Positions 1,857-54,051 of a DNA stretch of 64,000 nt are shown one piece after another (the first letter of the stretch is position 1; each line of letters starts with the position of its first letter). The translations under genes were made by a program, and so were the position numbers. This stretch comes from Cliona cf. orientalis (Eukaryota; Porifera; Demospongiae; Clionaida; Clionaidae), in NCBI GenBank assembly GCA_963930775.1, contig OZ005690.1, positions 13,790,411 to 13,854,410 of the forward strand, given 5' to 3'. The notes beneath the pieces are model-generated. The model was not told where the DNA came from, searched no databases, and worked only from the letters and a program-made list of their open reading frames with translations.

Positions 1857-4800
1857 ATGGCCTGGAGGAGAAATTGCCTACCCGTGGCAGGTTTCAGTGT
1901 CTTATGCGTACTTATCAACTTCTGTGGTGAGTGATATAATCGTTCAGGGACTCGAATCTCAGTGAAGACAATAATCACATTTACTCAGCCATTTCAGGAC
2001 AGTTATTACTGGAACCAGCTGGGGACCTGTATGTATGCATAGGAGGAGGAATGAGAATAAGGTGTAGCACAAGCACAGCAGCAGTTCAGCTTGAATGGAA
2101 CGTCACAGTTCCTGGTTCCAATCCTTTTCAAACAGAGAAAAAATCATTTCAGCGTGGAAATAATCCTGTAACAGCTAAAGCAATAACTGTGAATTCAGCC
2201 ATCCTCAACATGTCTTTGACAAGATCTTTTCCACTAGTCTCAGAGATATTTACTGACAATGCAATAGCTGATCTTAATGGAGTTTTGATAACCTGCACAG
2301 AGTATGTATCTCATATAGACACTGATGGCACATCAGCAAGCACCCAAATAATCTTGATCAGAAACGATAGTGGAAGTGTGAATAGTAGGCGTGCATAATA
2401 AATTAAATTACAATAGTACAAATTATTCACACATATTGTTTTACAGTCACTCCAAATGTGAGTATTTCTAGAGAGTTTGAAGCTGACAGAGTGAGAGTAA
2501 CTCTGGAATGGACTCACAAAAATGGTGTATCCTATGCCATCAGAGTTGATCCCGAAGTGAATGTCAGCTACTCATGGAGGAAGAGTGCTCAACTAGTTTT
2601 GCCCTATAATAGCAAATACAACATCAGTGTTGTAGCCTCCCTCTGTGGAAATAGCAGCGCAGCTTTTATCATAATTAACTATGGTAAATTAATGTTAAAG
2701 ATTCTAGACTAAGTTTTAATAACCATTATTAAGTTATCATTATAATGACGTTGCATTGATTATTCCTGCAGCAAGGTGCCCTGAAGTGATGATTAATAGT
2801 CCCGTAAGAGTAACTGGTCACAGAGATCCAGCCCTAGAAGGGACTACTGTCATGTTCAGCTGTCCCACTGGACTGACACTCTCCGGGTCTAGTATGTCAA
2901 CTTGTATGGAAGATGGAGAATGGGAACCAGACCTTAAAGAAATAAAGTGTAAAGGTTGGTATCAGGATAGGGAGCTAAATCAATTATAGTGGGCCAACAT
3001 ATTTTTGTCACATTGCAAGTCATTAATGTAATTTTTTATGGCTTTACTATACATCATAGTGAAGTGATGATGACTTTAATGTATACAATATTATCCAATT
3101 GAATACATGTATCTCTTATATTGTAATAACTACAGTTTTCCACTACCACTTTTTTTTAATTTGCATGTTGCTTTTTGCTACTGCCATGGCACCCCTACTT
3201 GAAAATCTTTATGAGAATTATAATAATAACATGCATAGCTACATTGAGAATAGGAATGTATACATGGTCAATTTTGAGATTTATAATTGTCTATACCGGT
3301 ACCCCTAAAGTTGCATTATAGCTATAATTTTATTTATGGGCAAGACTTAGTGTCTTGGAGAGCTACTTATTAAATTCATTGCAGTTGACTGTGGAGTTCC
3401 TACGGTAAACAGTAATGTCAGTCTGAACTATAGCTCCACACTAGAAGACTCTCAGCTTACATTCCAATGTGAAGATGGACTCTTTCCAGATGGACTGTTT
3501 TCATCAAGGTGCTACCAGAATGGAAGCTGGATTCTTAATCCTTCTGGTCATGTATGTGCTACATCATCAGCAGGTAATTACTTTTAGTAGCTACATAATA
3601 ATTATTATACAAGTGATGCACATTAATTCAATTGCCCTTCTTATACTGCAGTAAACTGTGGTGATCCTCCCCCTCCCTCAGATGGTTATCTTGAACCTTA
3701 TACAAGCACTTCAGAGGGGGCTAGGGTCAACAGAGTTCACGTCTGCCAGACTGGACAAGTGGAAACTGAAGAAATTGTTTGTAATTCTGATGGACAGTGG
3801 GAAGTGTCCAGGAGCAATGTCTGCACCATAAAGCCAAGTATTATAATTATAAAAATTTCTATACCTATATTATTATTATAATAATATTATTATTATAAGG
3901 AGACATTTGTGCCAATTACCTGCCCATGGTTGTGTTACAAAGGCCTTAATACAATCTGGTTTAAGGCATGATAATGTGTCTGCATTGTATACTCACCTTC
4001 CTTGTCATCATGTTTTTTGATACTATAATTATACTAACAGGGGCTTATCAATTTAATGTGTTCCTTTCATATGGCAAATTCAATCGGTATAGCCTTTTTC
4101 ACCAGGCTTATCTGCTTGTAATATTGATTCAGAAACTCTGAGAGGACTTGTGAACAAGGCTATAAAATTTTATAATTATAGATTCTCTGAAGCCTGATAC
4201 TAATGTCATCATTGGTGCTTCACTGGGATCTTTATTGGGAGTAGTAGCATCATGCTGTGGTATCCTGATAGTATTTATCATCATAAAATGGAAAGGTCAG
4301 GAGTTCTAATCAATATAGGTATATTATGATTGGATAATTATTAAGTGCCAGTGCATCTATGGAATGATATCATATCCTTAGATTGTAAATGCAGAGTATC
4401 ATAACCCTTAATATTATATACATTGTGTATAAAAGCATAAAAATAATAATAATTATTATTATTATAATTATGCCATGCTGTAATCTAATCATGATCACAG
4501 GATTAAAACGAAGAAATATTCCTGTATCACAGAAGTACGTATATATTCATGGACTCTAATAAATAATAAATAAATAATCAATGTTCTCTGTACATAGCTA
4601 TACTATTAGGAGTACTGAAAGCACTGATCTTGATCAGGTATAATAAACTGAGGGTATCACTGTGATGATAATTAATTAACTATCAGACTAGTATATAATA
4701 TTATTTCAGGGAGAATACAGCTTACTTCAGCATTCTGCCCCAGTGATTACAGATAAGAAGAATAATTCAATTGTGAGCAAAATTTATTAATGATTCCATT

Positions 4801-6114
4801 GATACACTGTATATGTCATGCCATAATATTTAATTTATTGTTTGCTCTCATGCTGACATGTGCATGGTTATGCACAAGTGGTTGAATAATAATATTATTA
4901 TTATAATAATTATTATTTTTTGGCCCTGACAGTTACTGTAGCTTTGATCTACATCATAGTCTGCATGGTATACGTACTAGGTGGGATGTTTCCTCAACAA
5001 AATTTAATTCTAGGGTGAATATAGTTTGATTCAACTTTCTGACGTAGAAAAGCAATTGAAAACAAATTCAGAGGTGAGTTCCATGCTAACTTGAAATATT
5101 ATTATGTTACACTAAAATATTATGGTATCAAGTCCACAATATATAGCGAGTGTACTCGTTTTTGTTACACCAGCTCTGGCTTAGCTATTATTCTGCCAGT
5201 GTTGTATGCATGGTGTAAAAAGAATGAGTGCACTTGCTGTGCTGACTAGATCTATTACATAACCAAGAACCTCAACAACCTATGTATGGTTTATGCACCT
5301 CAGGACCAACCAACAACTCTTGTCTACGCAGATGTCATGTCTTTCAAGCAAAATTCCCATGTGCCTTTGTGTAATCCAACAGAAAATAGGGTAGAGTATG
5401 CTCAGTTGAAAGGATACACTGGAAAGCTGGATCTTGAATCACCAGACAAGACACATTCAATTGGTAGTTGAATAATAGCTAATTATCATCTCTAAACAGA
5501 TTTATGTTATGTGAATGGCAATAATAATATATATTATTTAGCAGTCGACGTGTGATAAATTTTATGCACACTATTGTTCTTATGACACAATGCCATCTGA
5601 TAATGCTACTAGATCAAACCATCAACCTTGATATTTTACTTATTCAACTGAAACCTGCTGTCACTGATATGTGGTATCAGTTTGGAGAGGCCATTGGTGT
5701 GAATAAGAAACTATTGGAAACGTGTACTAGATATCCATCCGATCAGAGTTTGGTAGAAATATTGGATAACTGGCTAAGAAACCACAGTGGCCAGCCAACG
5801 TGGAATGAAATTGCCGAAGCATTGACAGAAATTGGTTTAAAGGAACTGGCATACAAGATTGAACGTGTTTATGAAACAGGTACAAATAAAATTTTTCGCT
5901 GACAATCTGTCAGTGCCTCCAAGATATTCCCTTTTCATGGCCAGAATTTTAATACTGATAAATCCGTATACTTTGAGGCACTGATCTGTGATACTATTAT
6001 TAATCATTTTTAGGTAAACTACCCATAGAGGTTGACATGAATACACTACCTGAGGTACCATCACATGAGCCAGCAGAAGAGCCACCACCACCTATACCAC
6101 CTAGAGAGTATTAG
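1857..6114 (+). CDS. Ig-FN3-CCP3 receptor with ITIM-like motifs and death domain
   Basis: Single-pass receptor of about 690 residues built from 14 exons: 1857-1926 leader; 1998 to about 2369-2384 Ig-like (donor ambiguous, three in-phase choices); 2447-2683 FN3-like; 2772-2954, 3385-3573 and 3652-3837 three CCPs; 4182-4295 membrane helix; 4501-4534; 4598-4637; 4710-4772; 5014-5073; 5304-5463; 5613-5879 death domain; 6014-6114 tail. The cytoplasmic part has GEYSLL and GEYSLI in two similar phase-0 exons, then LVYADV and VEYAQL, which fit the ITIM consensus (I/V/L/S)xYxx(I/V/L). The death domain has WYQFGEAIG, LDNWLRNHSGQPTW and EALTEIGL. The end PPPPIPPREY fits a PxxPxR SH3 ligand. Known roles of these modules suggest ligand-dependent signalling through SH2 phosphatases and death-domain adaptors; the ligand is unknown. 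The upstream ATG used by the inverted paralogue is lost (ATATGG is ATATCCGG here), so the start is placed at the next ATG, which is in frame because of a compensating 4-base difference later in the exon. Confidence 0.88.
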
Positions 6115-6790: not shown

Positions 6791-9116
6791 ATGGCGGCTA
6801 CGAGAACGGTGAGTCATGAATTGTGTTAGTAGATCCATGAATTGTGGGATCTCCTATAAAGAACGAAGATTGTTTGTCAGGGTTAGTCTCCAGGGCCGGG
6901 TCTGTATGGCAGGATTAGTCTCAAAGGTTTGATAGTCTCAGTCCAGGGTTGGCCACGGTTTGGTTTCAGTCGAGTGAGGGTAGTATGTTTGAAATTATCA
7001 TGAAGCTATGAACTTGATTTTTTTATGTTCTACCTTTTAACTACAGAATCTGATACCCCATCAAGGACTACAAAAAATTGTGACTTGCTGTTGGATTTCT
7101 ATCATTGTTGGTAGGTTATTGTCTGTTTTTCTCAAGGGATCTGTACTGACTCCCACAATTTATCACCGTCATGACAACTTCAGCTATCCCTGTGCTGCAT
7201 GAATAAATCACAGCAAAATGGCAAAACAAGGGATGGTTGATAGGCGTTATCACATCATTGCCAGCTACCATTTAATTTTTTAAGGTATCACTAAAATTCA
7301 TAGCCCTGAGCATTTCGTATTCATGGAGAAAACACTCGCGGGTGGCTTGTAAATCACAAAAGTCATGAAAGTTTTCTCCCTCCAAAGTTTCCTGCTATAT
7401 ATCAGTTGCTTGTGGGCATGTCCCAACCGTGCAAGTCCTGAGTGTGTGTTTATATAAATAACTATGGTTTCATTGCCTTCAATCGGGTGTGGCTTACAAG
7501 CCCACGCTTTGCTGGTAGGGCAGACAACAGGGACGTGGCAGTAGGTGGGTGTGTCCCTGATTCGGCATAACGTACATCTGATGCCTATCAATTGGCATCA
7601 CAGCCCAACTAAGCTAAGCATGAAGTACATGTACATAGGTTACATGTACATTACATATGTGTACATGTACATGTACATATTAATAGCTTCCATATTCAAA
7701 AGTACTTTCAGGGAAGTCGCTAAAGAGTGGTGTAGCACCGCTCTTTAATTTTATACATGTACATATCTCTTAGAAGGATGTGCAAAAAGTACATGAAATA
7801 GCTTAGTTACAGTGTTATGTGTTAGAAGATGAAGTCCTTGTATATTAATTACCAATTTTGTTGATCCGTATTTGTAGTGACTTCATCACCTGCTGTGTCA
7901 TCTCAGTTAGTAACAGTTACCAGTGACATATCTCCTGGAGATGTCCTGTGTCCAGGAACAGAAGTGAACTTTACTTGCACAACACGAAATACAGCAATCC
8001 TTATCTGGAGTAGTAATGAATATATTGGTAATCCATTAGAAGTTAATTCAAGAGATAATTTGGATCAAATACAAAGAGGTTCCATCGACTCAAACACGAC
8101 AGCTACACTTGTTAGTAGAAGTGTAGAAAATGATACCATACTAGTGCTGGTATCCCAACTTCGAATTACTGTTTCATCCATTTCCTTGAATCCTTCTGTG
8201 ACATGTATTCATGATGGTGATAATGTACCAGATGTCTTCTCTTTTCAAGTCCTAGGTATCTATGATTATACACAAAAATGTGGATCTTGATAATAATTGT
8301 TGATTGTTTTATTCCAGCTACTCCTGCTGTACCACAAGTAATTGCTGAGTACCCAATGGGATCATGTGAACTAAACATCTCTATGACTGCTCCAGACAAC
8401 ATCGCTGTCAATGATACTGATCGTTTTATGGTCGACATTGATGGGATGAATGTGAAAAACGACACTTCCTTATCTTTGAGTTATCCAGTGAGTAGCTGTG
8501 CTACCCGCAACGTCAGAGTCATTACTGTTGATCGCTGTGATCGTGAGAGTTCACCTGCTATGGTTGCTGTTGATCCAGGACAAGTTTGCGTATGTAGTGT
8601 GAATGCAGCTGTGGACAATAGTAAGTATACAATTATGTGTACGTGATATTTTATTCCCTATTACTTGTGTGTATGTCTCATTTTAAATTTAGCTGTTATT
8701 GTGGGAAGTGTGGTGGGATCAGTTGCTGGCCTGGCTATTGTGGCAGTTATTGTGGTTGTGATTATAGGACTTGTCTACAGATTCTACATAGAAAAGGGAA
8801 AGGTACATATTAATATAATGCAAGTCACATAGATCGAGACGTACCGTACAGCCTTTACATATTGGTTCTAAGTGTATCCTCTATAATAAAGGAGAGGAAA
8901 AAAGGAGCAAGAACTGCAAAGGTTTCACCAACAAAAACCAAAGAACCTTCTAAATCAGTAGGTGATAATTTCTCCTCTCCATGGTCACTTAAAATTAATA
9001 TAAAATGTTATGTACTTTGCAATTTGGGCCGCATGGGTGCTTACTGGGGATCAAAATTCCATACATTTATAGACAATGGCTCCTTGAAATGTGGTACATG
9101 GGCGCTTACCCGGTAA
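6791..9116 (+). CDS. Subfamily C receptor: Ig + FN3-like + membrane helix, basic tail
   Basis: Exons: 6791-6808 (MAATRT), 7047-7110 (hydrophobic leader, CCWISIIVG), 7878-8255 (Ig-like), 8318-8620 (FN3-like), 8693-8802 (membrane helix, VGSVVGSVAGLAIVAVIVVV), 8892-9116 or ending at a donor after 8957. Phases are consistent throughout and give about 365 residues if the last exon is read to its stop. The Ig exon shares the WSSNEYIG, PSVTCIH and FSFQVLG positions with the receptors at 36663-37040 and 56352-56729, which places it in subfamily C. The tail begins ERKKGARTAKVSPTKTK: strongly basic, with no ITIM-like tyrosine. The last 40 or so codons overlap a dispersed repeat (8995-9145), so the true C-terminus may be spliced elsewhere from the TCA|GTAGGT donor. 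The first, six-codon exon is the least certain part. Confidence 0.68.
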
Positions 9117-9145
9117 TTAATGGGCGCATATGCCCGGTATCTAAA
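8995..9145 (+). repeat. Dispersed repeat, copy 1
   Basis: It contains CCATACATTTATAGACAATG, CCTTGAAATG, GTACATGGGCGCTTACCCGG and a trailing GGGCGC...CCCGG. The same order of blocks recurs at about 19655-19815. It provides the 3' end of the open frame in the neighbouring receptor gene. Confidence 0.6.
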
Positions 9146-12208: not shown

Positions 12209-12261
12209 ATGGTCATGCAAGGCCTACAAACTCTACTGTTCGGCTGGACTGTGCTTACCGG
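12209..12261 (+). other. Possible orphan signal-peptide exon
   Basis: The ATG at 12209 opens MVMQGLQTLLFGWTVLTG, a leader-like hydrophobic run, followed by a GG|GTAAAT donor. The donor would be phase 2, whereas the receptor leaders in this window all end in phase 1. No downstream exon was recognised. Confidence 0.18.
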
Positions 12262-31717: not shown

Positions 31718-32571
31718 TAATTTTGTAGCAGACAACTATTCCACACTGTACACTAGTTAGTATTACATTGTCAAATTATGTAAATATTGTTTCTCATTTT
31801 CAAGTAGACTATATAACTGCATCTTAAATGGAAAAAAATACTTATTGTTGCTGTATGCTTATGTAAACAATAGGTTACAGCTACACATATAGCTTAATTT
31901 GCTTGATTTAAATCTGTACCTACTGTGCAACGGACCATTGGCTTTTATACTACAACACATATTACAGCCCTCGAGCACCACTTCAGCCCCATAGCAATTG
32001 TACATATTGTATTGGAAGAGTAGATTTTTATCTATTTCAGAATAACGCATCCTAAGTAGTGAAATACATTGTGTATATATATGGTGAGAATAACACACAA
32101 TAGGGCTGGCCAATCGTAATTATTGAGATATCAAAACTGAATCGTCTTTAGCATCTCGTTGATGGCATTCTGATTAGCTGTGCACTTGTCATACATTAAT
32201 TTTTGCCTACTCTTATTATTGTTGTATATAGTAGCTGCTGACTACAAGCTAGGTGGCTTTGCCTATATAATTGTACTTGAATCTTGTAAAAAAATCTAAA
32301 TACATGTAAATAAACTTTCACAGCACCACTGGCAGTAAAAGAAAGCATCAAGGCAGGATTCGAACCAGTGTGCACATTTGACATTACTTGGAATTCGAAG
32401 TCACAGAGCTTAACCACTACACCATCTGGACAATCACATGGCTGTGGTAGGAAGTGCATACTTTATTGAATATAATATTATCATCACATCTTAAGCATAA
32501 TATATAATATTCATTAGCTAGAATACAAGCTTACGTATACAACAAGTAATCATTATGACCGAACACTACTA
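31718..32571. other. Intergenic, includes tRNA-like element
   Basis: AT-rich 3' flank of the receptor gene. Apart from the tRNA-like sequence at 32345-32432, no gene or strong repeat was seen. Confidence 0.4.
32345..32432 (-). other. tRNA-like sequence, probably tRNA-derived SINE or relic
   Basis: On the minus strand an A box TGGTGTAGTGG (32414-32424) is followed 47 bases later by a perfect B box, GGTTCGAATCC (32356-32366), the internal RNA polymerase III promoter. The T stem has mismatches and the acceptor stem does not close well, so a functional tRNA is unlikely. A tRNA-derived SINE head or decayed tRNA fits better. Confidence 0.45.
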
Positions 32572-33198
32572 ACGAGTGCCAGTTAGTACAGTGCGCATGC
32601 GCAGATGAAAGCAGCACCGTAGACCACACCCAAGAGTAGCTGCTCTAACCGTGTATAATGGCGACGTTCTCACTCCGCTCGAGGCTCGGTGGCCTGCCGA
32701 GCAGGCCTGTCGAAACGCGCGGCGCTTGCGCCGCTCGCTCGAGCTCGATAATGCATCTCTGTGGCCCCTAGGCCCTAGCTGGCAACCTGGAGAGCGCATC
32801 TTTTATGCCCTCCAGGTTAGGACACGGACTATATAAGAAAATTGATCGTCTGAAAAATATTTTTCGTTGTATATAGTATAACAATAATATTATAGCACAA
32901 TTGATTCACACTCAATAATCCAACTTGTACATGCAGTTATAGTTACAATAATTATAGCAAAGTGTACATAAATTTCAAAGCATTATACTAATAATTTAGT
33001 ATTAGTTTTCTCTGTCATCATCTCGGATTCGAAACTATAAATTTAAGAATATTAGTGTAAGTTCAATGAACTGCCAGCTAATAATATTATTAAACCCTAT
33101 TATTTACCAACATTTAGTTAGAGCAGCTACTCTTGGGTGTGGTCTACGGTGCTGCTTTCATCTGCGCATGCGCACTGTACTAACTGGCACTCGTTAGT
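32572..33198. repeat. Foldback element with ~80-bp inverted ends
   Basis: The left arm 32572-32652 (ACTAACGAGTGCCAGTTAGT onward, including GTGCGCATGCGCAGATGAAA) is the near-exact reverse complement of 33119-33198. The inner part (ATGGCGACGTTCTCACT, GGCCTGCCGAGCAGGCCTGT, CATCTCTGTGGCCCC) is GC-rich and has a diverged relative at 57440-58130. The retrotransposon begins at the right end with no gap. Confidence 0.8.
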
Positions 33199-35094
33199 CT
33201 ACCCTGGTTAACAAAACCCATCATTCAGCTGATGAGGAAAAGGAACACGCTATTTCGTGCCGCCAGCAAGACGAAGACGGAAGCTGCTGTAACAAAATAC
33301 AAATGTGTAAGAAACCGAGTTGTTGCCATGCTACGGACAAGTAAATCTAAATACTTTCGCAATCTAGGTCACTCGTCTCAAAAAGACTTTTGGAAAGCAG
33401 TCAAGCTAATCCGGAGACAAGAAAGCTCAATCCCGGCCCTGAAGAACGGACCGACTCTTGCGACCTCCAACTCGGACAAAGCGTTACTACTTAACGAATT
33501 CTTTTACAGTTGTTTCAACGACTCCTTCTGTCCTCTGACCGAACCAACCCGCCTCGATCCAAGCAAATGTCCCCCGCACCTCCTCTGCACTGAAGAAGAG
33601 GTCACGGACCTACTGCTGAGCCTCGATCCTGCAAAATCCACCGGACCCGATAAAATATCGGCCATTATGCTGCGGTCAACCGCTGTGCTTATCGCACCGA
33701 GTCTGACGAAACTATTCAACTTGTCGATCGCGAGCGGGCGCTTTCCGACGGACTGGAAGTGCGCTCGGATCACACCGATCTTCAAGTCTGGTGACTCCGC
33801 TTTAGCCTCTAACTATCGCCCAATTTCCATATTGCCCATCGTGAGTAAAGTGCTTGAACGCCATATCTATACACTTCTGTTCGATTTCCTGGCTACTAAC
33901 TCTCCAATATCCCTTCACCAATGGGGATTCATGCCCAACCGCTCAACTGTTTCTGCCCTCTGCACACTGATTCACGACTGTCTGAAGTCACTCGACGATG
34001 GTAATGAGATCTGTTCGGTGTATTTCGACCTCCGCAAAGCGTTTGACACTGTACCCCACGTTCCTCTTCTGAATAAGCTAACAAACCTTCAACTTGACAA
34101 ACACGTGCTAACATGGATTCAAAGCTATCTTGCGAACAGATCACAAGTTGTTGCTGTAGGAGGGGATCAATCTTCTAGCGTGCCAGTTATCTCAGGGGTA
34201 CCACAGGGGTCTGTCTTGGGACCCCTCCTCTTCCTCGTATACATCAACGATGTCACCTCTCTCATGTCTGCTCCTAGCAAACTAACGCTATTTGCAGACG
34301 ACATGACGCTCTACCGCACAATCTCCTCACCGGCAGACTACATCGTACTGCAGTCGGACATTACTGCCATTTCGACATGGGTGGCTGGCAACCACCTTCA
34401 ACTTAACTCCAACAAATGCTGCTTCATGTTAATATCTCGTAAGCGTTTTCGTTCTATCCCACCACCAACTCTCTATATCAATTCGAACACTAGTACTGCT
34501 TTAACACAAGTTAAGTCTGTCAAGTATCTGGGTATCCAACTAACATGTGATCTGTCGTGGTCATCTCATATAACCACCATTTGCTCTAAAACTCGCAGAC
34601 TCATAGGTCTCTTGTATCGCCAGTTTCATCTCTGTGCGCCTGAAACTGCACTCAGACTGTACAAGACTTTTATTCGACCTCACCTCGAGTACGCGTCTGT
34701 CGTATGGGACCCATACCTTGCCAAGGACATCCAGTCTCTCGAACAAACACAAAAATTTGCTCTGCGCATGTGCTTCAGAGATTGGTCCTGCCCTTACCAA
34801 CAGCTATTAGTTCAAGCAGAAACCCCATCACTTGCTGAGCGTCGTGAACAAGCAAAACTTTGCCATCTCTACAAAATCGTACATGGTTTGACAGATTGCC
34901 AGTCAGCTCCTGTCCAAGTCAAATCACCTGCCTACAACACTAGGCAGGTCACCGACTTCACATTAGAGAATATCAGAGCAAATACTTCTCAGTTTCTGTA
35001 CTCTTTCTTTCCTCACTCCATCTCTTTATGGAATTCTCAATCTACAAATACTCAAACTGCCCTGTCATTTTACACATTTAAACAGTTATTATAA
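33199..35094 (+). CDS. LINE reverse transcriptase (partial ORF2)
   Basis: Open for about 630 codons; the first ATG, at 33232, is internal to the ancestral protein. Counting from that ATG, the fingers/palm motifs are visible in order: LDPAKSTGPDKI, WKCARITPIFKSGD, NYRPISILPIVSKVLER, the palm aspartate in VYFDLRKAFDTVPH (D266), GVPQGSVLGPLLF (from residue 322) and the catalytic FADD (354-357). A Leu-rich thumb and a C-terminal region with LYKTFIRPHLEYASVVWDP follow. This order is that of CR1/Jockey-like non-LTR elements. The N-terminal endonuclease is absent by truncation. The reading frame is undamaged, which suggests a young insertion, although a truncated copy cannot be autonomous. Confidence 0.93.
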   Translation, partial: LPWLTKPIIQLMRKRNTLFRAASKTKTEAAVTKYKCVRNRVVAMLRTSKSKYFRNLGHSSQKDFWKAVKLIRRQESSIPALKNGPTLATSNSDKALLLNEFFYSCFNDSFCPLTEPTRLDPSKCPPHLLCTEEEVTDLLLSLDPAKSTGPDKISAIMLRSTAVLIAPSLTKLFNLSIASGRFPTDWKCARITPIFKSGDSALASNYRPISILPIVSKVLERHIYTLLFDFLATNSPISLHQWGFMPNRSTVSALCTLIHDCLKSLDDGNEICSVYFDLRKAFDTVPHVPLLNKLTNLQLDKHVLTWIQSYLANRSQVVAVGGDQSSSVPVISGVPQGSVLGPLLFLVYINDVTSLMSAPSKLTLFADDMTLYRTISSPADYIVLQSDITAISTWVAGNHLQLNSNKCCFMLISRKRFRSIPPPTLYINSNTSTALTQVKSVKYLGIQLTCDLSWSSHITTICSKTRRLIGLLYRQFHLCAPETALRLYKTFIRPHLEYASVVWDPYLAKDIQSLEQTQKFALRMCFRDWSCPYQQLLVQAETPSLAERREQAKLCHLYKIVHGLTDCQSAPVQVKSPAYNTRQVTDFTLENIRANTSQFLYSFFPHSISLWNSQSTNTQTALSFYTFKQLL

Positions 35095-35299: not shown

Positions 35300-38200
35300 T
35301 TAAATTTGTATACCTGTAAATGTTTTATTCTTTTTGGTAGGAGTTGTTAAATTTATTGGTCGTTTCTGCAAAATTGCAAGTAACATTATTATAACAATGA
35401 TTAAAATGAGACATAGTGGACCCAAGACCACTGATACTCCAATTACAGCTCCCACGTGTGAGTCTATAAAAAAAGAAATTAACTGCAGTGAATGCTATTA
35501 AACAAGTCAATAGCTTTCTCGAGACAATAGTATATAATTATATTATATTATATTATATTATATACGAACTCGTCTTGCTTTGTTTGTCAAACCAAGAGCC
35601 AAGAGCTCAAAGTGTATGTGATTTCATTCTTCTATTACAAGCTAGTGGCTATTAGAAGATGTGCAGGTTGAAGCATTGCATAGGCATGCACGTTTTGAAT
35701 ATCACTTAATGTCTTCATCGTTCATGAGGCTGAAATAAAGGGTGATAACTACCCATTAATTTTATACAATTTTTAGTAAATTTTGTGCCTTTAATGTTAC
35801 TTACGCCATTAATGAAAAATTTATCGCATGCACAAAGGTCACGGTTGTGTGTATCTAATTAATACTTTCGATTTCGTTACTCTACATAACATTGCTAACA
35901 AGTGCTGTGCAGTACAGTGCACCAAGGATTTTACATGACAGCTTCTCAAGTAGTTATATATCATGCTCACCACAATTCTGAGCCATACTTTCACTGTCAG
36001 CAGTAGCAGCACCAGTTGTCGATGAACCTTCTGTAAAAGAATTTCCAAGATTTACATAGTCTCATAGCCAGGTCTTCCCATTAAAAGCATGGAAAGGACT
36101 GCTGGATATAATATTAATATATTTCATTGCACGGCTATCTCACACTATACAAAGTATTAATAAGGATCTCAGCACTTCTTATTAATTTTATTATACTGAT
36201 GATTATTAATATATGCAATTACCATCATTTGTACTCTGGGAAGGTGGTTCTGGCTCATCTATAAAGTGTGGTGGTGTTCGAGGAATGATATTAGAGACAA
36301 GAGGAGTCTGACCACAAGCATTAGAGGCGCTAACGCTGATTTCATATGCTCCACAAGTTATAAGAAAAAGTGCTGAGACTCTTGCCCCATTCACATTCCT
36401 GTCAATAACATCAGTATCAGCGGACATCCGAGTCCCATTAGCAAAGATTTCATACTGAGTCGCATCATAGTGATTTGGGCTGTTCCATACGGTATGTACA
36501 ACACAGTTGCCCTCAGAATGTTGTATTGCAACAGGAAAGACGTTCTCCAGTGAAGCAGGTGCATCTGGGTTGAAAAGTAACGATACAATTATGAAATTTG
36601 TTTATACTATGATACTAATAGCTGTCCAATATACACTATACTGCATTGAATACCCGACTTACCAATTACTTGAAAAGTGGTAGTATCTCTCTGCCCACTA
36701 TCAGTGTGTATGCATGTCACAGAAGTGTTTTGAGTATCTGGTATTGGATTGATACATAACGTGGACTCAAGTACTGTCTCTCCTTGATCTTCTTGTTCCC
36801 CGGTAAGTGTTGCAACTGTGTCCATTCTAGATACGCTAGTACGTATATCTCCTGTATCATCTAGCTCAGCTTCAAATACAAGTTGAGCACCATTAGGTCC
36901 GATGTATGCATCACTGGTCCAAGCAATTCCACTAGATCCTCTCGTCACACATGTGAAGTTGACCCTTGACTCACGACATGCAAATTGTCCATTTTCTAAT
37001 GTACTAGTCAGCGATTGAGCAACTACAACTGGTGAAATGGCTGCACAAAAAATGAGTATATACTGGTGGAGTGGCCGGATTATACACAAATCCCGTTTAC
37101 ACACACACACTGTCTCAATCTCACTATTGGTAGGGCTATAATGCTGTGATACACATGCTATGTGATACAAGTAGATCTAGATGCCTACAGGCAATATTAT
37201 ACCTGTACATGTGCATGTACATGTACATGTGTATGTAGCAGGTCAGAGGAAATACTACTGTACCTACAAGTAGTACATGTGTAGACACAGGAACCATTAT
37301 ACTTATAACTTATATGCCCGTAACATGCACAAATGTCCCATTATTGTTTTAGCATTCTACACTGGTTATGTTTACAAATAATTGGCAGATAACATGATCA
37401 GTGTGTGTATAGGCTTAGAATTATACACAATATAAGTGTGTATCCTGGACAAGCAAATTAGGGACTTCAAAACCATGCTCAATTAAGCTATATACAGTTA
37501 CATGTAGTCATAGTGTCATCATCCTTGCCACCACAAGCACAAAGGAGCAAAAAAAATGACAAAGCAATATTTAAATAATGCCAGGAGTACACAGGACAGG
37601 CTGTAGAGTGACTCCTGCCCTGCCCATGGATTTCTAAGTTTAGTAACCTTTTACATCATCCTACCGAGGCCCCCACATCAGAAATATTACCATATTGGGG
37701 CATGTTCACTGACAATGTGGTGACAATATTCATAGCCCCAAGAAACAGTTACATCACTTATTCATAACTGCTGGATAGTCCATCCATGTACCAATCCAAT
37801 TAAAATGAAACTGGTACAGTTAGGAGCAATATGTGCATGCACCCACCATCCCAACATCACTAGTGAAGTGCACGCATGTTCACCACAACATGACTCTATT
37901 ATATTTTAGACTCTAGTTGTAACAAATTCTGTCATTTGATTGGTTGGAATCAAGTATCTAAGTCACTTAGTAAGTCTATAACTTAGAAAGCTTACAACTT
38001 AGAATACTTACAACTTAGAAACCCAGTTTTTGATACCTAGGGCAACAACTTGCATCATGTTACTTAGCAACCTCATGCTAGAGTCTAAATAAGTTAGACA
38101 CTTCAGCCAATGGGATCTACAGTCTTTAGAATACTTCAGACACTTATAAAACCCTCAGGCTTCGCCTTCGGGATTTTATATCAGTGTTTTCAGTATTCTA

Positions 38201-44227: not shown

Positions 44228-46758
44228 TTAATTCACTGCTACATGTAGCTGTAGTCCCCCCACTGGTCCATAGGCAACATTTTCTGACATCTCTAAGCCT
44301 TGTAAATTCTGCTGCTCATGCTCAGCGGTGGGTTGATTTGTTTGAGTTTTGCACAGCGCCAAAATTGACTGCTTATATTTCTGGCATACACAGCCACAGA
44401 CAAATCCAATGGTGAAGAAAACGAATATTGAAACTATTACTGAAACAATCGTTAAAGTGAGTGTACTGTGGTCGGAGGATGCAATACTTCTTAGACCTAC
44501 AATAATAATTATGATAAAATTTCCCCTCATATAATCAATATATATATACCGTAATAATTGTGAATTTTGTATTTCCATCTTGTTAAATTTTGTGCTTGAG
44601 ATTGTCATACTTTTAGTAGCTTATAGCCAGTACTAATCATGGCATGGTGTTGGTACTCATGTTCACAGTACTTCAAATATCATTGTATTAATATTGAATA
44701 ACATGCATCAATATGATCCATGAATACTAGATCAATAAAAGTGGTCGACATGATCACACATTCTCTTTGGTGTAAACAGAGCTATCATTATACTAAGATT
44801 ATAGTTGTCCGTGCGTCCGTGCGTCCGTCCCAGCGGGAGGTGACCGGAAGTGATTTGACCCGAGCTAAAAATTTTTCTTTCTGGGCGTCACTGGACTTGG
44901 GACGATACAGCAGACAGCCCACTGATGGCGGCTGGCTATGGCCCAGCAGCCACTAAAGTGAGCTGCTTAAAAAAACCGGCAGGAGAGTATTAGACTGAAC
45001 TGTACACTTACATATGGCGGCCTGGAGAATGCGAAAGAGTGACATTCTTGAGTCCATGTTGCCCATAGGTGCTTTCCAGAGGGAGGCGATTCTATTCTAA
45101 GCGTCTTTTCTTGGGACCCCTTGCGAGCGAAGCTGCAAGACAAGTAATGAATGCTTTAGCTAGGTGATTGACTTAAAGTCACATGATTAGGCAGGATGTG
45201 CACGTGCGCTAGCTTGCTCTCTGCGCATGCGCACAAATACGTAGGTAAAGGTCGTCGACCACACATGCACAATATTAATAGTAGGAGTGAGCGAGCGAAG
45301 CGAGCTCACTCCTTGTATATACTAAAGCTATTACCCACAGTCTGTCAGCATACATACCTCCTCCACATGTACATCTTGTTGATATTTGACTGAGGTTAGG
45401 CTCCCACCTTCCCTCCACACAAATTGAAGTATAAGAGTTGGCATTGAGCGACCCACACTCAATGGCGATGACTGAACCTTCTAGTGCTGGAGCTGTGTAG
45501 TTGATTACTATCAGGTCATTGCTGGTTGGTTCATCACAGGCAACTGCATCAGAAATATAGGAAATATACATCAAACCAATGCACACATATGAATTGAGAT
45601 TTTCATTCATTTATTCATTAATGGAGGACAAAAAAATTAGACGGTATACCTCTAGTTAAATACTTATATAGTTACCATTATCAGTATTTGTACTTCGGGA
45701 AGTTGGTAGATCCACCTCATCTATAAAGTGCGGTGGTATTCGAGGAATGATATTAGAGACAAGAGGAGTCCGACCACAAGCATTAGAGGCACTAACACTA
45801 ATTTCATACACTCCACAACTGATGGGAAAAAGTGCTGAGATCCTTGTCCTATTCACATTCCTTTCAATAACATCAGTGTCAGCGGACATCAGTGTCCCAT
45901 TAGCAAAGAGTTCATACTGAGTCACATTGTAACGATTTGGGCTATTCCATACGGTATGAATAACACAGTTGCCCTCAGAATGCTCTATTGGAACAGGAAT
46001 GACATCCTCAGGTGTAGCAGGTGCATCTGGAAAAAAAGTAACGATAAGATTCTACCATATACTATACTACATTGATTAACATACCAATTACTTGAAAAGT
46101 GATAGTATCTCTCTGATCACTAGTAGTGTGTACACATGTCACGGAAGCGTTTTGAGGATTTAGTAATGGATTGATACTTAACGTAGACTCAAGTACTGTC
46201 TCTCCTTGATCTTCTTGTTCCCTGGTAAGTGTTGCAACTGTGTCCCCGTTAGATGAACTAGTCTGTATATCTCCTGGGCTATCAAAATCAGCTTCAAATC
46301 TGAGTTGAAAACCATTAGTTCCAATGTATGCATCACTGGTCCAAGCAATTCCACCAGATCCTCTTGTCACACATGTGAAGGCTACACTTGATCCAAGACA
46401 CGCAAATTGTCCATTTTCTAATGTACTCGTTAAGGATTGAGCAACTATAACTGGTGATTCAGAAATGGCTGCACAAAGAATGAATAAGAGAGATGAATGT
46501 GACTGGTGGATTACACACAATCCCCGTTTACATACGTACACACCAATCCAGCTAGTGATAAGGAGTTGGGGGTGCCATTCAGCGCACATATATAATATAT
46601 CAGCTTTCATGAAGGCCCCATATATAGCTATAATATATTATTATACTCACCAAGAATGGCAATAGCTAATCCAATTGCTCGAGATCTCATCTGGACAGCC
46701 TAAAGTTAATATTAATATTCACAGTATTATCCTCATGCTCTGGGTTTATGCTCACCAT
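44228..46758 (-). CDS. Chimeric receptor: C-type Ig/FN3 joined to B-type CCP/TM/ITIM tail
   Basis: Minus-strand exons: 46756-46758 (M), 46651-46690 leader (MRSRAIGLAIAILG), 46085-46468 Ig-like, 45676-46026 FN3-like, 45358-45543 CCP, 44228-44496 membrane helix and tail. The total of 1233 bases equals 411 codons exactly. The first four exons match subfamily C (ENGQFACLGSSVAFTC, WTSDAYIG, NCVIHTVWNSPNRYNVTQYE, CGVYEISVSASNACG, PPHFIDEV). The last two match subfamily B (ACDEP, APALEGSVIAIECG, FFTIGFVCGCVCQKYKQSIL and MSENVAYGPVGGL). The joint is a phase-1 intron of 132 bp, as expected from recombination between receptor genes. VAYGPV is the only ITIM-like motif. The last intron (44497-45357) carries repeats, including GTGAGCGAGCGAAGCGAGCT. 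Alternatively, two overlapping incomplete genes were read as one; the perfect frame argues against that. Confidence 0.85.
44560..45320. repeat. Repeats in last intron of the chimeric receptor
   Basis: A CpG-rich block (44800-45130, with CCGTGCGTCCGTGCGTCCGT, GGGAGGTGACCGGAAGTG and GTTTTTTTAAGCAGCTC-like ends) is followed by a perfect short palindrome, GAGTGAGCGAGCGAAGCGAG with CTCACTC (45284-45312). These look like non-autonomous elements that inserted at or near the recombination interval. Confidence 0.45.
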
Positions 46759-47848: not shown

Positions 47849-50202
47849 TTACAATAAAGCACAATTTAGCTCGTTGCTAGCTGAAATCCCCCCCACTGGT
47901 CCATAGGCAACATTTTCTGTCATCTCTAAATTTTGTGACTCTTCTTGCTTATGCTTTATGTTCAAATCAGTGGAGGGTTGGTCTCTTTGAGTTTTGCACA
48001 GTGCCAAAATCGATTGTTTATGTTTATGGCATAAGCAGCCACAGACAAATCCAGTGGTGAAGATAATAAATACTGCAACTATTACTGAAATGACAATTGA
48101 AATGAGTGTACTGTTGTTGGAGGCTGCAGCTGGTATGTTAACGACTCCTGGACCTGTATGATAAAATTACTCACATTATTAGTGACATATATAGTATAGC
48201 TAAGACCTACAGCATACCTCTACACCTTATTGATATTTGGCCAAGGTTAGGCTCCCACCTTCCCTCCACACAAGTTGAAGTATAAGAGTTGGCACTAAGT
48301 GCATCACAGTCAATGGCAATGACTGAACCTTCTAGTGCTGGAGCTGTGTAGTTGATTACTGTTAGATTCAGGTCATCGCTGGTTGGCTCATTACAGGCAA
48401 CTATACCAGAAAATAAAAGGAATTAGTACCAATGGTAGTATGCGTGATATGACTTACTGTAATATAGTTTAATTGCTTCAGGTGATGGTTTGCCACAGAT
48501 AGCAATGTTCACATTGTGTTCAATATTGTATGGGATGGTAAGTTGGACACTCCTGTTTCCCACCGATCTTACAGATGCTGGTGGAAGGACATGTACACTG
48601 TTGAAGACTACTTCATTCTGGAACCACTCACTGACAAGAGTTATTGTAACGTTCTGTTCTCCAAATTGTTCGTCACTGATAGCCATTGGAATCGTTGCAG
48701 CTGCTTGACAATAATATATTGAGTATATATGCATGTGCAAAGAAATATAAAGTTTGTAATAGTATGACTACAGTCACATTACCATAGGCAAGAGTACGGA
48801 TTACAGTTGTAATTATCCTCTGACTCTGTAATCAGTACTCCTGCTATAATATAGCCTAGGGAATATTATGGCAATTAATCATACACTAACTTTAATCCTC
48901 GTACAATTATAGGGCAGCAACAGTGCTCTTACGTGTACTCATACAGCCAAATAACACTTGTTATTGCTTGTGCTATATATTACTGACTGTACTTGTATGT
49001 ACGTATGTGAGTACTGACTGCCCTAATTGTACTTGGAAGTGTATGATTAATAATGCACACTTGCTGGCTTTTAATAGCTAAAGAACAGTCTCGATGCACG
49101 TTTCTCCTGATTAATACTGCAGAGGGGATGGTCTGCAAGGTATTTAGACTATAGCTAAACGCTGCTCTGGCAATCTTATTGGATACAAACCTTACTGTGA
49201 TCAATGATGTGAATGGTCGTTATTGATGTCCCTTCCATACTTCGAGTACACTGTATCTTGGTTTGATTCCAGTCAGTGATCACATTATCGACAGTCAAAA
49301 CTGACATCAATGGTGAGTTTGATATCTTAGAGAGGTGAAGTACTGTCTGATTAATAGTGAGAGGTTGTTCAGTCTCTGGACTTTCTTGATTAACTACTCT
49401 GACTGCTATTGCTGGGTCCAAATGCAGTGGAGTGAGTGATACATTAAAAATCCATCGTAGAGTAGAACCATTTGTGCAACAGAAGAGTGTCAGATTGTCT
49501 CCAGGGCATACCATAGATACAGACGATAATCCTGAACATACTACTAAAAGTCATAAAGAGCATAATATAATCAGTACTGCTATAGCCAATAGTAGCTTTA
49601 CAGGGGCTGATGGGGGGGGGGGGGGGATGAAATGGGTGGCTAGCCAGTACCCCCCTGATATTCAAAATTACAATGGTGAATTCTATAAAACTTATTCTGA
49701 AAACAAGCTTAGGTTGCCTTATTCTACAATCTGCCGTCACTTGAATATTGTGCCCAGCCACCCCCATTCAAAGAATCCTGGATCAGCCCCTGCTTCATAT
49801 TGCAATAATTTTATTATATTACTATAAATGTCAGATGAGTTTCTATGTGGAAGTGGGCGTGGAGTTATATATAATATGCACCATGGTCGGCCCTAATTCC
49901 TATTGATAATAATATGAATGATCATTTTTGGTGTCACTATTTCAAGTGATTAACTAGCTATAGCCAATGACTTTAATACAATTGTTTATCACTACAACAC
50001 CAAAATAATATATACGCTCCCTTCTTCATTACTCTCTCTCTCTCTCTCTCTCTCTTAATTTTAATTTCCTTTCATCCCCCCCCCTCCCCATACAGCCAAT
50101 GTTACCTTGTTCGTTTGAGCGTGATGCTTCAGATAATAATAATACAATTATTCCGATCCACGCGAGCTTGACGCCTCTCAAAGTTTCAGCGATGACCTGC
50201 AT
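47849..50202 (-). CDS. Subfamily B receptor: Ig-FN3-CCP-TM with short ITIM-like tail
   Basis: Minus-strand exons: 50106-50202 leader (MQVIAETLRGVKLAWIGIIV, then LLLS), 49196-49540 Ig-like, 48458-48700 FN3-like, 48218-48400 CCP, 47849-48153 membrane helix and tail. The total of 1173 bases is 391 codons exactly. The Ig exon has MVCPGDNLTLFCCTNGSTLRW and DWNQTKIQC; the FN3 exon has VSEWFQNEVVFNSV and QLTIPYN; the helix is VISVIVAVFIIFTTGFVCG. The tail has MTENVAYGPVGGISASN. A 7-G run at the motif's end changes the final residues relative to sister genes. Ig and FN3 exons are nearly identical to those of the divergent gene at 50635-54051, which instead has a death-domain tail. A MITE sits in the first intron. 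Confidence 0.9.
49601..49792. mobile_element. MITE with CAGGGGCTGAT inverted ends in receptor intron
   Basis: CAGGGGCTGATGGGGG at the left is answered by GGATCAGCCCCTG at the right, bounding 192 bp with no coding potential. A related left half occurs at 61771 onward (CAGGGGCTGATGGGGG and GGTGGCTAGCCA). It lies in the leader intron of the 47849-50202 gene. The target duplication is not clear. Confidence 0.6.
50031..50056. repeat. TC microsatellite in leader intron region
   Basis: About twelve TC units at 50031-50056, followed by an AT-rich patch and a C run, directly downstream (in gene orientation) of the leader exon of the minus-strand receptor. Confidence 0.9.
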
Positions 50203-50634: not shown

Positions 50635-53600
50635 ATGATTACCTCTGTATCTTTGAGAGTTACCAAGCTTGTGTGGATCATAAACGTATGCACGATATTG
50701 CTGTCTATAACATCGCTAAAGTGTTCTGAACAAGGTATATAGTAATCGATTTTCACTGTTTGTCGCCTGAGTTGTATGCAAGCAGGAACGTTAGATCTTA
50801 GATGCATGCATGGAATTCTGAGCATAATAAAGTGTATACCTGTAATTATATCATTGTGTACAGTGTGTTTGGGATTATCGTCTGTATCTATGGTATGCCC
50901 TGGAGACAATCTGACACTCTTCTGTTGCACAAATGGTTCTACTCTACGATGGATTTTTAATGTATCACTCACTCCACTGCATTTGGACCCAGGAAGAGCA
51001 GTCAGAGTAGTTAATCAAGAAAGTCCAGAGACTGAACAACCTTTCACTATTAATAATCAGACAGTACTTCACCTCTCTAAGATAGCAAACTCACCATTGA
51101 TGTCAGTTTTGACCGTCGATAATGTGATCACTGACTGGAATCAAACTAAGATAGAGTGTACTCGAAGTATGGAAGGGACATCAATAACAACCATTCACAT
51201 CATTGATCACAGTAAGGTTTGTATAGCATAAATTAAAGTTATATAGCCATAGTCTCAATACCATGCAGACCATCCCCTCTGCAGTATGTAGTCCTTTCAG
51301 GAGAAACGTACATCAAGACTATAGCCAGCAATGCCATGTGTGTATTATTACAAACTTTTTGCACATGCATATATACTCAATATATTATTGTCAAGCAGCT
51401 GCAACGATTCCAATGGCTATCAGTGACGAACAATTTGGAGAACAGAACGTTACAATAACTCTTGTCAGTGAGTGGTTCCAGAATGAAGTAGTCTTCAACA
51501 GTGTACATGTCCATCCACCAGCATCAGTAAGATCAGTGGGAAACAGTAGTGTCCAACTTACCATCCCATACAATACTGAGCACAATATCAGTGTTGCTAT
51601 CTGTGGCCAACCATTGCCTGAAGCAATCAAGCTATACTACAGTAAGTCATACGAGTCACGCATAATACCATTGGTACTAATTCCTTTTATTTGCTGATGC
51701 AGTTTCCTGTGATGAACCAACCAATGATGACCTGAATGTAACAGTAATCAACTACACAGCTCCAGCACTAGAGGGTTCAGTCATTGCCATTGACTGTGAT
51801 ACACTCATTACCAATAGCTACACTTCAACTTGTGTGGAGGGAATATGGAAGCCTAACCTTAAACAAATATCAATGAGGTGTAAAACAGGTATACCGGTAT
51901 CCAATTCTTATTTTTAATATCTATCTACATTATTACATCCTAAATAGGTTATTATAGGAAAAAATTACATCCTAAGTAGGTAGCGTAATCTAATGTAACT
52001 CAGCTCAGCCCCAGAACATGCTACAGACATAATTCGAAGATCAGTAGATGATGAAAGTGCATGCTATAGTATTTCTTCTACTTCTGTAAGCATTAATTCC
52101 TCTCCTTTTCAAATCACTGAAGTGTAATTCACTGAGCATAATGCTGAATCAGTTTACAATTAATTGTACTGCCACATGAGCACTCACAACTATAGGACTT
52201 GACATTCTAGATACTGATCATGCTGAATCGGACAGAAGTCTCATTCTCGGTGCTTCACTCAGTGCTTTTTTCTTAACTCTTGCTCTTGGAATTCTATTCA
52301 CAGTATTAATTGTCAGCATAAAAAAATGTGAGTAGTAATAATTAGCTACCATGATATTAAAAGTCTGTGGTACGAACAACGTCATATTTATTTTGGTAAC
52401 ACCTATATTTCTTTTACATCTTGCAATTGACCACATAGGACAGTGACCGTAACAATAATAACCTAGTATATAGTGGAGTGTGTGTTTTATAATATTATTA
52501 CAAAGCAGGTTCTGTATGCGTCCATAAATGTAATCCAAGCCTGTCGCTACAGTAAGTTCATGCAATCATCAATATTCATAATAATTACTATGTTCTCATA
52601 AAAGGAGTAATCAGCAAGAAAGACTTAGTAATGACAATTTAAGGAATCATTATCTGGTATGAACCAATCAATAATTATTACGATATGTTTGATACTTTCA
52701 TCTATTTGTATATATAGGGTGAATACAGTGAAATTACCCTTCAGTCGCAAAATAATGATATGGTAACTATCACAGGAAAATTTTTCAGTTCACTACCATT
52801 GTAATATCATCCAAATTTGATGTAAATTGACCAAAAATACAGTACTTTTACAATGCTAAATTCTAACAAAATTGTACCAATACAATGATTGTAATTTGGC
52901 ACAAGAGCTCTGAACATTGTAAAATTGTTGTAGTTTAAAACACATGGATTGTAGAGTCAATGTACAATCATTGTAAAATACGTGCAAGTTAGGATGTAAT
53001 CAGTGCTAATTGCCTATAGATTTCCCCAACTTTGTATTTTTATTGTATTTCAGAAATACATAGGTTGCAAAAAATTTCAAGGATTGCAAATTTGCTGTAA
53101 ATTTCTATATTACAATGGTTGTAAACACACTTTTTTTTCCTGTGTATAATATTATTATAACCGCTGTCATTGGCCATAATTATTGTTGAGTGGTTTATGA
53201 CAATTAAATTTAAGGCTATAGTATAATCCATAGCCATAATCATCGAGAGCTGGCTAGCTATGTACGCATAGCCAGCTATATAATAATTGTAACATTGCTA
53301 TTACAATGTACAGGATGAAACACAACCACGGACCGTTGTGTATGCTGATTTGGGTCCATTATCCTATGGAAAAAAGAAGCCATTTACTTCTGTGGCGACA
53401 ATCCTTGATGATGATCGCATTGAGTATGCTCAATTAAATACTAGAATATCAGCAAAATCACAAAAAGATGTGCAACAGACGTCAACATGTCCTGAAAGCT
53501 CATCTGGTATGCATGCTAGCAATAAATTGTATACTTGCATGCAGCTATATATTATACTTTCTATAGGAAATCCTCTAAATTTGGATAGCTTATTGATTCA

Positions 53601-54051
53601 GCTTCAACCTGAAGTTAATGAAAAGTGGTATCAATTTGGAGAAGCATTAGGAATAGAGAAGAGTATACTGGACAAATATTTATCATATCTTCCCGATCAG
53701 AACATAATCGAAGTGTGTGATTACTGGCTAAGAAATCATACTGGACAACCTTCTTGGAATGAAGTTGCAGCTGCTTTAAAACAAATTGGATTTCAGCAGC
53801 TTGGATATGGCATTGAAAGGGTGTATGAAACAGGTATAGCCAATGTACCCAACTACTATATACACTATCATTGAACATTATCTTATGTCACTATTCTTTT
53901 TTACGCTTACTACACTATAATATTAAATTTTATAATTATGATAGGGAGACTACCAAAAGAAGTCAATATGAATGCAGCAGTCAACATGGAGTCTGACATG
54001 TTTCTTGATGAGACTGAACAACCACCGCCAATACCACCTAGACTTACATAG
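50635..54051 (+). CDS. Subfamily B receptor: Ig-FN3-CCP-TM, ITIM-like motifs and death domain
   Basis: Eleven exons: 50635-50734 leader; 50864-51211 Ig-like; 51399-51641 FN3-like; 51703-51888 CCP; 52211-52327 membrane helix; 52509-52551; 52605-52656; 52718-52762; 53314-53506; 53567-53833 death domain; 53945-54051. The total of 1701 bases is exactly 567 codons, strong support for the model. Approximate residues: Ig 34-149, FN3 150-230, CCP 231-292, helix 303-327, GEYSEI (Y366), VVYADL (Y388), IEYAQL (Y416), death domain 443-531, proline-rich end 532-566 with QPPPIPPR (PxxPxR). The death domain has WYQFGEALGI, CDYWLRNHTGQPSWNEV and ALKQIGFQQLGY. Its cytoplasmic exons match the 1857-6114 gene one for one in phase, except that one GEYS exon is missing. 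The second and third tyrosines fit the ITIM consensus; GEYSEI does so only at +3. The likely role is ligand recognition coupled to phosphatase and death-adaptor signalling. Confidence 0.92.
52771..53144. mobile_element. MITE with CACAGGAAAA ends in receptor intron
   Basis: CACAGGAAAATTTTT on the left is answered by CACTTTTTTTTCCTGTG on the right, bounding 374 bp, with TAT on both outer sides (possible 3-bp target duplication). The inside is rich in TTGTAA/TTACAA motifs (TACAATGATTGTAATTTGG, CAATCATTGTAAAATACG). It occupies most of the intron between the GEYSEI and VVYADL exons. Confidence 0.68.

Follow-up and report, generated by a model that had tools for sequence, protein, structure and literature searches.

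Background

The ITIM consensus is (I/V/L/S)xYxx(I/V/L), and tandem ITIMs lie some 20-30 residues apart in PD-1, PECAM-1, LILR, KIR and SIRP; vertebrate paired receptors come as long- and short-tailed genes whose ectodomains are almost the same. To our knowledge, none of these vertebrate ITIM or paired receptors has a death domain. A death domain is not necessarily about death, as in the ankyrins, and we know of no large cluster of UNC5 receptors.

The FcoR proteins of the Botryllus fuhc locus are described as having V-Ig, sushi and C2-Ig ectodomains, one transmembrane segment and a long tail with an ITIM, a hemITAM or a lone YxxI/L/V, and the Alr genes of Hydractinia, candidate allorecognition genes of the histocompatibility locus, are described with ITIM/ITAM motifs (PMC12065747). 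In the same review ITIM motifs are reported on cnidarian and tunicate allorecognition candidates, and conservation between the proteins put forward for allorecognition in sponges, in cnidarians and in ascidians is said to be lacking. Among receptors with a death domain, Fas is reported to be phosphorylated by Src-family kinases, which turns apoptosis off, and YxxL peptides of death receptors to associate with SHP-1 (PMC4778973); UNC5C, whose domains include Ig and death domains, is described as recruiting SHP2 through a phosphotyrosine (PMC6080411). With these near-precedents, the original prediction that no described receptor combines a CCP/Ig ectodomain, ITIMs and a death domain has to be softened. 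In literature on sponges, Porifera or Amphimedon with ITIM, death domain or allorecognition no such receptor appears in titles or abstract openings, subscription journals mostly and bioRxiv preprints being outside that scope.

Genes A and B

The window, the whole stretch of 64,000 nucleotides of Cliona cf. orientalis DNA that was analysed, contains gene A (1857-6114) and gene B (50635-54051), both on the plus strand and both where they had been predicted. Via GT-AG junctions with phases matching throughout, the 14 exons of gene A give an uninterrupted protein of 693 aa and the 11 exons of gene B one of 573 aa.

Gene A begins with a signal peptide exon (1857-1926, by eye), followed by an Ig-like exon with a Cys...Trp...Cys pattern (1998-2375) and an FN3-like exon (2447-2683, by eye), both without a Pfam match, a CCP/Sushi exon (2772-2954) and two CCP-like exons (3385-3573 from the exon reading, 3652-3837 by eye). 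Two stretches of the protein pass as Pfam Sushi, with the position fixed for the best one only (residues 231-282, in the fourth exon). The transmembrane exon (4182-4295), recognised by eye from its hydrophobic stretch, leads into two small juxtamembrane exons (4501-4534 and 4598-4637, exon reading) and two tyrosine exons, GEYSLLQ (4710-4772, exon reading and motif search) and GEYSLIQL (5014-5073). The paired-ITIM exon (5304-5463) holds LVYADV (5319-5336) and VEYAQL (5391-5408), their tyrosines 24 residues apart, and is followed by the death-domain exon (5613-5879; Pfam Death at 26.3 bits against a cut-off of 22.6) and a last exon (6014-6114) in which exon reading and motif search place the SH3 ligand PPPIPPR at 6085-6105.

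Gene B is laid out in parallel, with a signal peptide exon (50635-50734, by eye), an Ig-like exon (50864-51211) without a Pfam match, an FN3-like exon (51396-51641, by eye), a single CCP-like exon (51703-51888) that is 44% identical to a gene A CCP exon and has no Pfam match, and a transmembrane exon (52196-52327, by eye). Two small juxtamembrane exons (52506-52551 and 52605-52656, exon reading) precede one tyrosine exon, GEYSEITL (52718-52762, exon reading and motif search), and the paired-ITIM exon (53314-53506) with VVYADL (53335-53352) and IEYAQL (53419-53436), here spaced by 28. The death-domain exon (53567-53833) and a last exon (53945-54051) with PPPIPPR at 54022-54042 (exon reading and motif search) complete the gene.

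The tail motifs are thus as predicted, VYADV and EYAQL in gene A and VYADL and EYAQL in gene B, as are death exons of exactly 267 bases and PPPIPPR in both last exons. The exon plan had been described as one-for-one, and the parallel layout holds but the strict correspondence does not: gene A has two GEYS exons and three CCP-type exons where gene B has one of each, and no second GEYS exon was seen by eye in 52780-53312. The CCP/Ig ectodomain likewise stands for Sushi in gene A, over the Pfam cut-off, but not for the Ig part, as no Pfam Ig family was over cut-off among the Ig-like exons scanned. Gene B has no Pfam family over cut-off at all, and its domains therefore rest on homology to gene A and on the predicted fold. 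When its tail (residues 370-573) was compared with the protein collection there were 0 homologues among 532 candidates, lengths being those of whole proteins, but exon-by-exon profiles did find homologues there, and the collection apparently contains mainly single-exon frames of such receptor genes.

A large family with tandem ITIMs

Genes A and B are not an isolated pair but belong to a large family of clustered one-pass receptors. In this family the tail runs from the transmembrane segment through a tandem ITIM exon and a death domain to PxxPx[R/K]. Two strict ITIMs are present in 26 of 28 family ITIM exons, where residue shuffling gives an expectation of 0.17 and a maximum of 3 in 2000 shuffles, and they fit the consensus in tails whose one-pass topology was judged by eye. 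At 27/30 family loci an ITIM pair precedes the death exon by no more than 1.5 kb, compared with 0/30 in the antisense control (2/30 with a looser pattern) and 0/8 at unrelated death loci, and the two tyrosines are 24-29 residues apart. As 25 family loci besides A and B carry the pair, the argument for conserved function first drawn from those two genes is strengthened. The reading of ITIMs, a death domain and an SH3 ligand in one receptor tail is supported.

The tail is not invariant. Three family loci (L029, L036 and L038) have no ITIM pair within 1.5 kb and none was seen in L073, a member on C13, whilst L071, an ITIM member on C10, leads into PPPLPPK without a death exon; the ITIM and death arms are therefore not obligatory partners. 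A PxxPx[R/K] tail was not found within 1.5 kb at 6/30 loci, and GEYS exons, searched as an exact pattern over the same distance, occur at 2/30, A and B only.

The death domain

Structure prediction gives the death exon a six-helix death fold, so that the objection of a different fold, which would have told against the original prediction, fails. With E 0.1 as the limit, Pfam PF00531 (Death) matches 13 of 14 family death exons, all but that of gene B. No Foldseek match to the predicted fold reached E 0.001, and a single-sequence query of the PDB returned nothing useful; a profile of 14 death exons gave 18 PDB matches, none better than E 0.06, that include Fas, CRADD and FADD. Phage_TAC_12 and DMP19 were each weakly matched in 4/14 family death exons and are taken as chance. 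As regards possible partners elsewhere in the genome, reading tandem-DED proteins at eight loci as caspases proved unsupported when judged by eye, and a FADD-like adaptor was likewise not established.

Short-tailed twins

Three head-to-head pairs of a long- and a short-tailed gene are found at and near the window, A/A', B/B' and C/C'. Gene A' (1-1554, minus strand) extends beyond the window and has the short tail NVAYGPL in L069; in its second exon (about 1374-1004), 5 bases inserted by comparison with gene A break the frame as assembled. Gene B' (47888-49532, minus strand), of which the first exon was not identified, has an Ig-like exon (49532-49197), an FN3-like exon (48701-48459), a CCP-like exon (48398-48219) and an exon with the transmembrane segment and the short tail ENVAYGPV (48124-47888). 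In all three pairs the genes are linked and their ectodomains near-identical but the transmembrane segments and tails differ, as expected of paired receptors; the short-tailed genes have no charged transmembrane residue, by eye, and carry a YGP(L/V) motif. Comparison of the ectodomains of twins gave no indication of diversifying selection; the A/A' E4 row, which matched a third copy lying more to the left, is left out of it. In the 8 kb upstream of gene D, at C2:12.7 Mb, there is no twin.

Proposed function and alternatives

We suggest, at a probability of about one half, that these are recognition receptors of immune or allorecognition type with a brake and a trigger in one protein. Ligand binding would cluster the receptor, a Src-type kinase docked on the SH3 ligand would phosphorylate both ITIMs, and the phosphotyrosine pair, 24-29 residues apart, could recruit a tandem-SH2 phosphatase of SHP type that keeps the cell non-reacting. 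The death domain would be the output arm, firing when phosphorylation is lost or clustering passes a threshold, and might then recruit death-domain adaptors, leading to cell death or NF-kB-type signalling. A short-tailed twin may bind the same ligand and, having no death arm, tune the response in the manner of vertebrate paired receptors.

It is very improbable that the death exon is part of a different, adjacent gene. The models of A and B rest on genomic DNA and not on cDNA, but a death exon follows on the same strand, 64-845 bases downstream, in 34/37 ITIM-exon matches of the genome, phases agree at every junction of both genes, and the public homologue P0059 has its ITIM, with Cys at -2 of the first motif, and its death domain in one open frame; it is on the same-strand pairing, and on one-frame public homologues such as P0059, that an artefact of this kind is rejected and the death exon assigned to the ITIM gene, as predicted. 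It would also seem unlikely that the tyrosine motifs are generic, non-inhibitory YxxPhi sites for sorting or adaptor docking, with the death domain as a scaffold. Endocytic sorting signals do fit YxxL/V/I. A precedent is offered by Fas, where phosphorylation of Y291 is reported to prime clathrin-dependent endocytosis (PMC4778973), but a tandem-SH2 ligand is the better match, given that the motifs have an aliphatic residue at -2 and usually Ala at +1, come as a fixed pair and vary little in spacing. SHP-type genes are present in the same genome, with an SHP tandem SH2 at C8:9936132-9938095.

A dependence or adhesion receptor like UNC5, which drives death when unbound, is switched off by ligand and tyrosine phosphorylation and serves tissue cohesion or cell sorting, is an improbable alternative, as neither ZU5 nor UPA nor TSP1 was matched when both genes were scanned with Pfam and so big a duplicated repertoire would be unusual for a guidance receptor. 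Somewhat more room is left for microbe sensing, possible though rather unlikely, in which the family would serve as a repertoire for innate pattern recognition comparable to the expanded sponge NLRs, its tail linking microbial binding to inflammation or death with no recognition of self. Sponge immune repertoires are described as rich in Death and NACHT genes (PMC12909245, PMC6208332), and at least 150 matches to Pfam Death occur in the present genome, among them frames that by eye combine a death domain with a stretch resembling NB-ARC and a hydrophobic segment; against this, clustered ITIM receptors and twins that share an ectodomain appear more typical of cell-cell recognition, as in Botryllus FcoR and Hydractinia Alr (PMC12065747).

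Within the preferred reading of recognition receptors with brake and trigger, allorecognition is only one option, given that no diversifying selection was seen between twins. A sponge-type self/non-self system is a doubtful, tentative version of it, in which a polymorphic paired cluster would bind self, keep ITIMs and SHP engaged and the death domain silent, and missing self would bring death to touching cells. Were it true, ITIM-gated recognition would lie at the base of the animals, with its brake and death trigger within a single protein. A death domain in the same tail would lead directly from recognition to the destruction of tissue, and a link between recognition and death is now testable on named genes and motifs and in one region of a chromosome, C2:11.0-13.9 Mb.

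Comparison with known systems

UNC5 receptors resemble the family in their Ig and death domains and, on the proposed model, in their SHP2-recruiting phosphotyrosine (PMC6080411), but Pfam gave no match to TSP1 or ZU5/UPA in either gene and one phosphotyrosine site is described where there is a tandem ITIM here. With Fas and the other TNFR-family death receptors the likeness is of a membrane receptor with a death domain and, on the proposed model, of tyrosine motifs that would bind an SHP-type phosphatase as the YxxL peptides of death receptors associate with SHP-1 (PMC4778973). In A and B, however, the tyrosine motifs are in their own exon outside the death domain, and cysteine-rich TNFR repeats are absent, the Pfam scan of both genes at E 1 giving only Sushi and Death over cut-off and no TNFR match. 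Vertebrate ITIM and paired receptors are similar in ITIM spacing and in having long and short genes that share near-identical ectodomains, and differ in that the short-tailed genes here lack a charged transmembrane residue and have YGP(L/V).

Hydractinia Alr is alike, by description, in the ITIM-type motifs of clustered recognition candidates, with no death domain mentioned in the account given of it (PMC12065747), and the term is absent from the main text of that review, which also covers Botryllus FcoR. In Botryllus, pairing is of FF with FcoR and not of twin ectodomains. FcoR resembles the sponge genes in the clustering of Ig- or Ig-like and sushi receptors with one transmembrane segment and a long ITIM-type tail (PMC12065747), a likeness by description and of layout, the Ig-like exon of the family having no Pfam match over cut-off. 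A sponge ITIM family that is large and clustered and has paired genes would extend this common signalling logic.

Long-tailed receptor genes A and B

The window was located at C2:13790411-13854410 in a genome of 216.8 Mb in 149 contigs. Hand splicing at GT-AG junctions gave two stop-free long-tailed receptor genes, gene A (1857-6114, +) of 693 aa from 14 exons and gene B (50635-54051, +) of 573 aa from 11 exons, with 38% identity from TM to C-terminus (283 residues aligned) and 30% between ectodomains (272 residues aligned). Both have a signal peptide, an Ig-like exon, an FN3-like exon, CCP-type exon(s) and a TM, followed by two small exons, GEYS tyrosine exon(s), a paired-ITIM exon, a 267-base death exon and a last exon with a terminal PPPIPPR. 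The paired ITIMs, death exon and PPPIPPR end of the original prediction are present in both hand-spliced genes; the exon plan, said to be one-for-one, is parallel, but A has one further GEYS exon and two further CCP exons. In gene A Pfam finds Sushi in two stretches (43.9 bits) and Death at 26.3 bits against a cut-off of 22.6; in gene B it finds no domain. No Ig or FN3 family exceeds the cut-off in the seven stretches scanned; the Ig-like and FN3-like labels are putative and reflect our own reading of the sequence.

Co-occurrence of ITIM and death exons

The death exon of B has at least 146 own-genome matches at E <=0.001 (identity 100-33%, 150 of 327 candidates scored), the best 114 being spread over ten contigs with 46 of them in C2:11.0-13.9 Mb. 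Its ITIM exon has 37 own-genome matches at E <=1, and 34 of these have a same-strand death exon, among the best 114, 64-845 bases downstream, where the chance expectation for a death exon within 3 kb is 0.08%; those with none downstream are at C2:14019724, C10:8958798 and C10:8966525. Starting from the death side, the top 30 loci, with A and B counted, comprise 27 with an ITIM pair and three (L029, L036 and L038) that have none within 1.5 kb; the antisense control gives 0/30 (2/30 with a looser pattern). None of the eight best Pfam Death loci outside the receptor family has an ITIM pair; some of these carry the death domain early in an NLR-like frame, which makes the set a control for chance rather than for receptor tails. 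At 24 of the 30 loci a PxxPx[R/K] tail lies within 1.5 kb downstream of the death exon, a count that has no control.

Members on other contigs vary in their tails. L072 on C1 has an ITIM pair, a death exon and PKLPPKP, in L073 on C13 an ectodomain, TM and death exon are seen and no ITIM pair, and in L071 (C10:8953500-8960500, minus) the ITIM pair runs straight into PPPLPPK in one frame with no death exon, which suggests that in this member the death arm was lost or was never present. The ITIM and death arms thus are usually, not always, together.

Each of four neighbouring genes at C2:2.95-3.00 Mb (L003, L004, L006 and L008) has, by eye, a single open frame in which a death domain is joined by an NB-ARC-like stretch and a hydrophobic segment; they are possibly membrane-bound NLR relatives. 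About 190 kb from the window (C2:14040350-14043550) a Pfam Death match adjoins a protein-kinase-like frame.

Tyrosine motifs

In an alignment of 17 ITIM exons the columns average 33% identity, and none but those of the two tyrosines is invariant. Two strict ITIMs, with tyrosines 24-29 residues apart, occur in 26 of 28 ITIM exons (shuffle expectation: mean 0.17, maximum 3), the remaining two departing from the consensus at position -2 of their first motif, which is Met or Cys. Of 144 candidates from public assemblies, 75 match the ITIM-exon profile, gene A's own exon (P0129) among them; all 75 keep the second motif, and 74 have the first tyrosine 23-31 residues ahead of it (P0185 has His there). 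Both motifs are strict in 57, and most of the remaining 18 are frames called from inside the first motif. Five share a 30-residue core, without mismatch, with one of 26 own-genome exons, and the others may come from other loci, individuals or species. With the death profile 7996 proteins were scored, and at least 771 matched at E 0.001; 120 of these are listed.

Proposed mechanism and candidate partners

The tyrosines are narrowly spaced and stand in (L/V/I)xYA-D/Q-(V/L/I) words, features that would suit a tandem-SH2 phosphatase. In Fas, Src-family phosphorylation is described as switching apoptosis off and SHP-1 as reversing this (PMC4778973). By analogy the phosphotyrosine state of the receptor tail may gate its death domain, with the SH3 ligand perhaps bringing in the kinase; the sign of this control, brake or trigger, is one that we infer.

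A human SHP2 query gave SH2, SH2 and PTP matches in order at C8:9936132-9938095 (51-77% identity). Two extra SHP-type copies with the same three matches lie at C4:7445033-7461013 and C4:7505662-7513703; in the second of these, two matched pieces contain in-frame stops. SHP2 homologues have been reported from Amphimedon (PMC7260276) and Spongilla (PMC10176882). The genome has 65 DED matches, among which no FADD was established; several are tandem DEDs in frames of about 600 aa that do not read as caspases by eye. This family, with two N-terminal DED matches and a long conserved C-terminal part that was not recognised, is found at C1:16.50-16.57 Mb, C12:8.06 Mb and C1:4.66 Mb.

Head-to-head twins and the surrounding cluster

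The original prediction concerned two genes, and the short-tailed twins described here go beyond it. Gene A faces an inverted copy, A', across 268 bases, with 1823-3001 matching 1554-381 at 87% and 3370-3876 matching a stretch from position 104 to 398 bases past the left edge of the window at 86%. Similarly, B 50862-51320 matches 49542-49087 (91%) and 51343-51882 matches 48764-48221 (89%) in B', where the first exon of B has no match, and a third long-tailed gene, C, lies at about C2:13878.7-13883.9 kb next to an inverted neighbour, C', that it matches at 97 and 95%. In all three pairs similarity extends over ectodomain exons and stops before the TM exon; the TMs of A', B' and C' differ from those of their partners and have, by eye, no charged residues. 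Their short tails end in NVAYGPL, ENVAYGPV or NAAYGPL, the first two each fitting the ITIM consensus once and the last, with Ala at -2, not at all. In the assembly a 5-base insertion in exon 2 breaks the frame of A'. The exons of B' and C' that were read are open, and dN < dS in every twin exon compared, on small counts. The 8 kb upstream of a fourth long-tailed gene, D (C2:12.71 Mb), contain no partner, therefore three of the four with upstream flank read are paired, the three pairs lying within about 92 kb.

Six further receptor-like genes of the cluster were read from the window sequence (7886-8800, +; 27275-28994, -; 30207-31696, +; 36278-37035, -; 44255-46457, -; 56357-59400, +). Those at 27275, 30207 and 44255 have short tails ending (E)NVAYGP(L/V), and others have Ig-like/FN3-like ectodomains of another type. 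Between receptor genes lies, by eye, an uninterrupted LINE-type reverse-transcriptase-like frame of 636 aa (33184-35094, +), and a tRNA-Arg (tcg) predicted by ARAGORN (32345-32432, -) could be a SINE remnant.

Comparison with known receptors

Parts of this architecture have precedents. UNC5C is described with an SHP2-binding phosphotyrosine besides its Ig and death domains (PMC6080411), death receptors with YxxL peptides that bind SHP-1 (PMC4778973) and Botryllus FcoRs with Ig, sushi, TM and ITIM joined (PMC12065747). Literature searches on sponge, Porifera or Amphimedon with ITIM, death domain or allorecognition gave no such receptor by title or abstract start. The claim that no such receptor has been described is softened by these near-precedents. 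None of the three systems, as the sources portray them, brings together tandem ITIMs, an SH3 ligand and a separate death domain.
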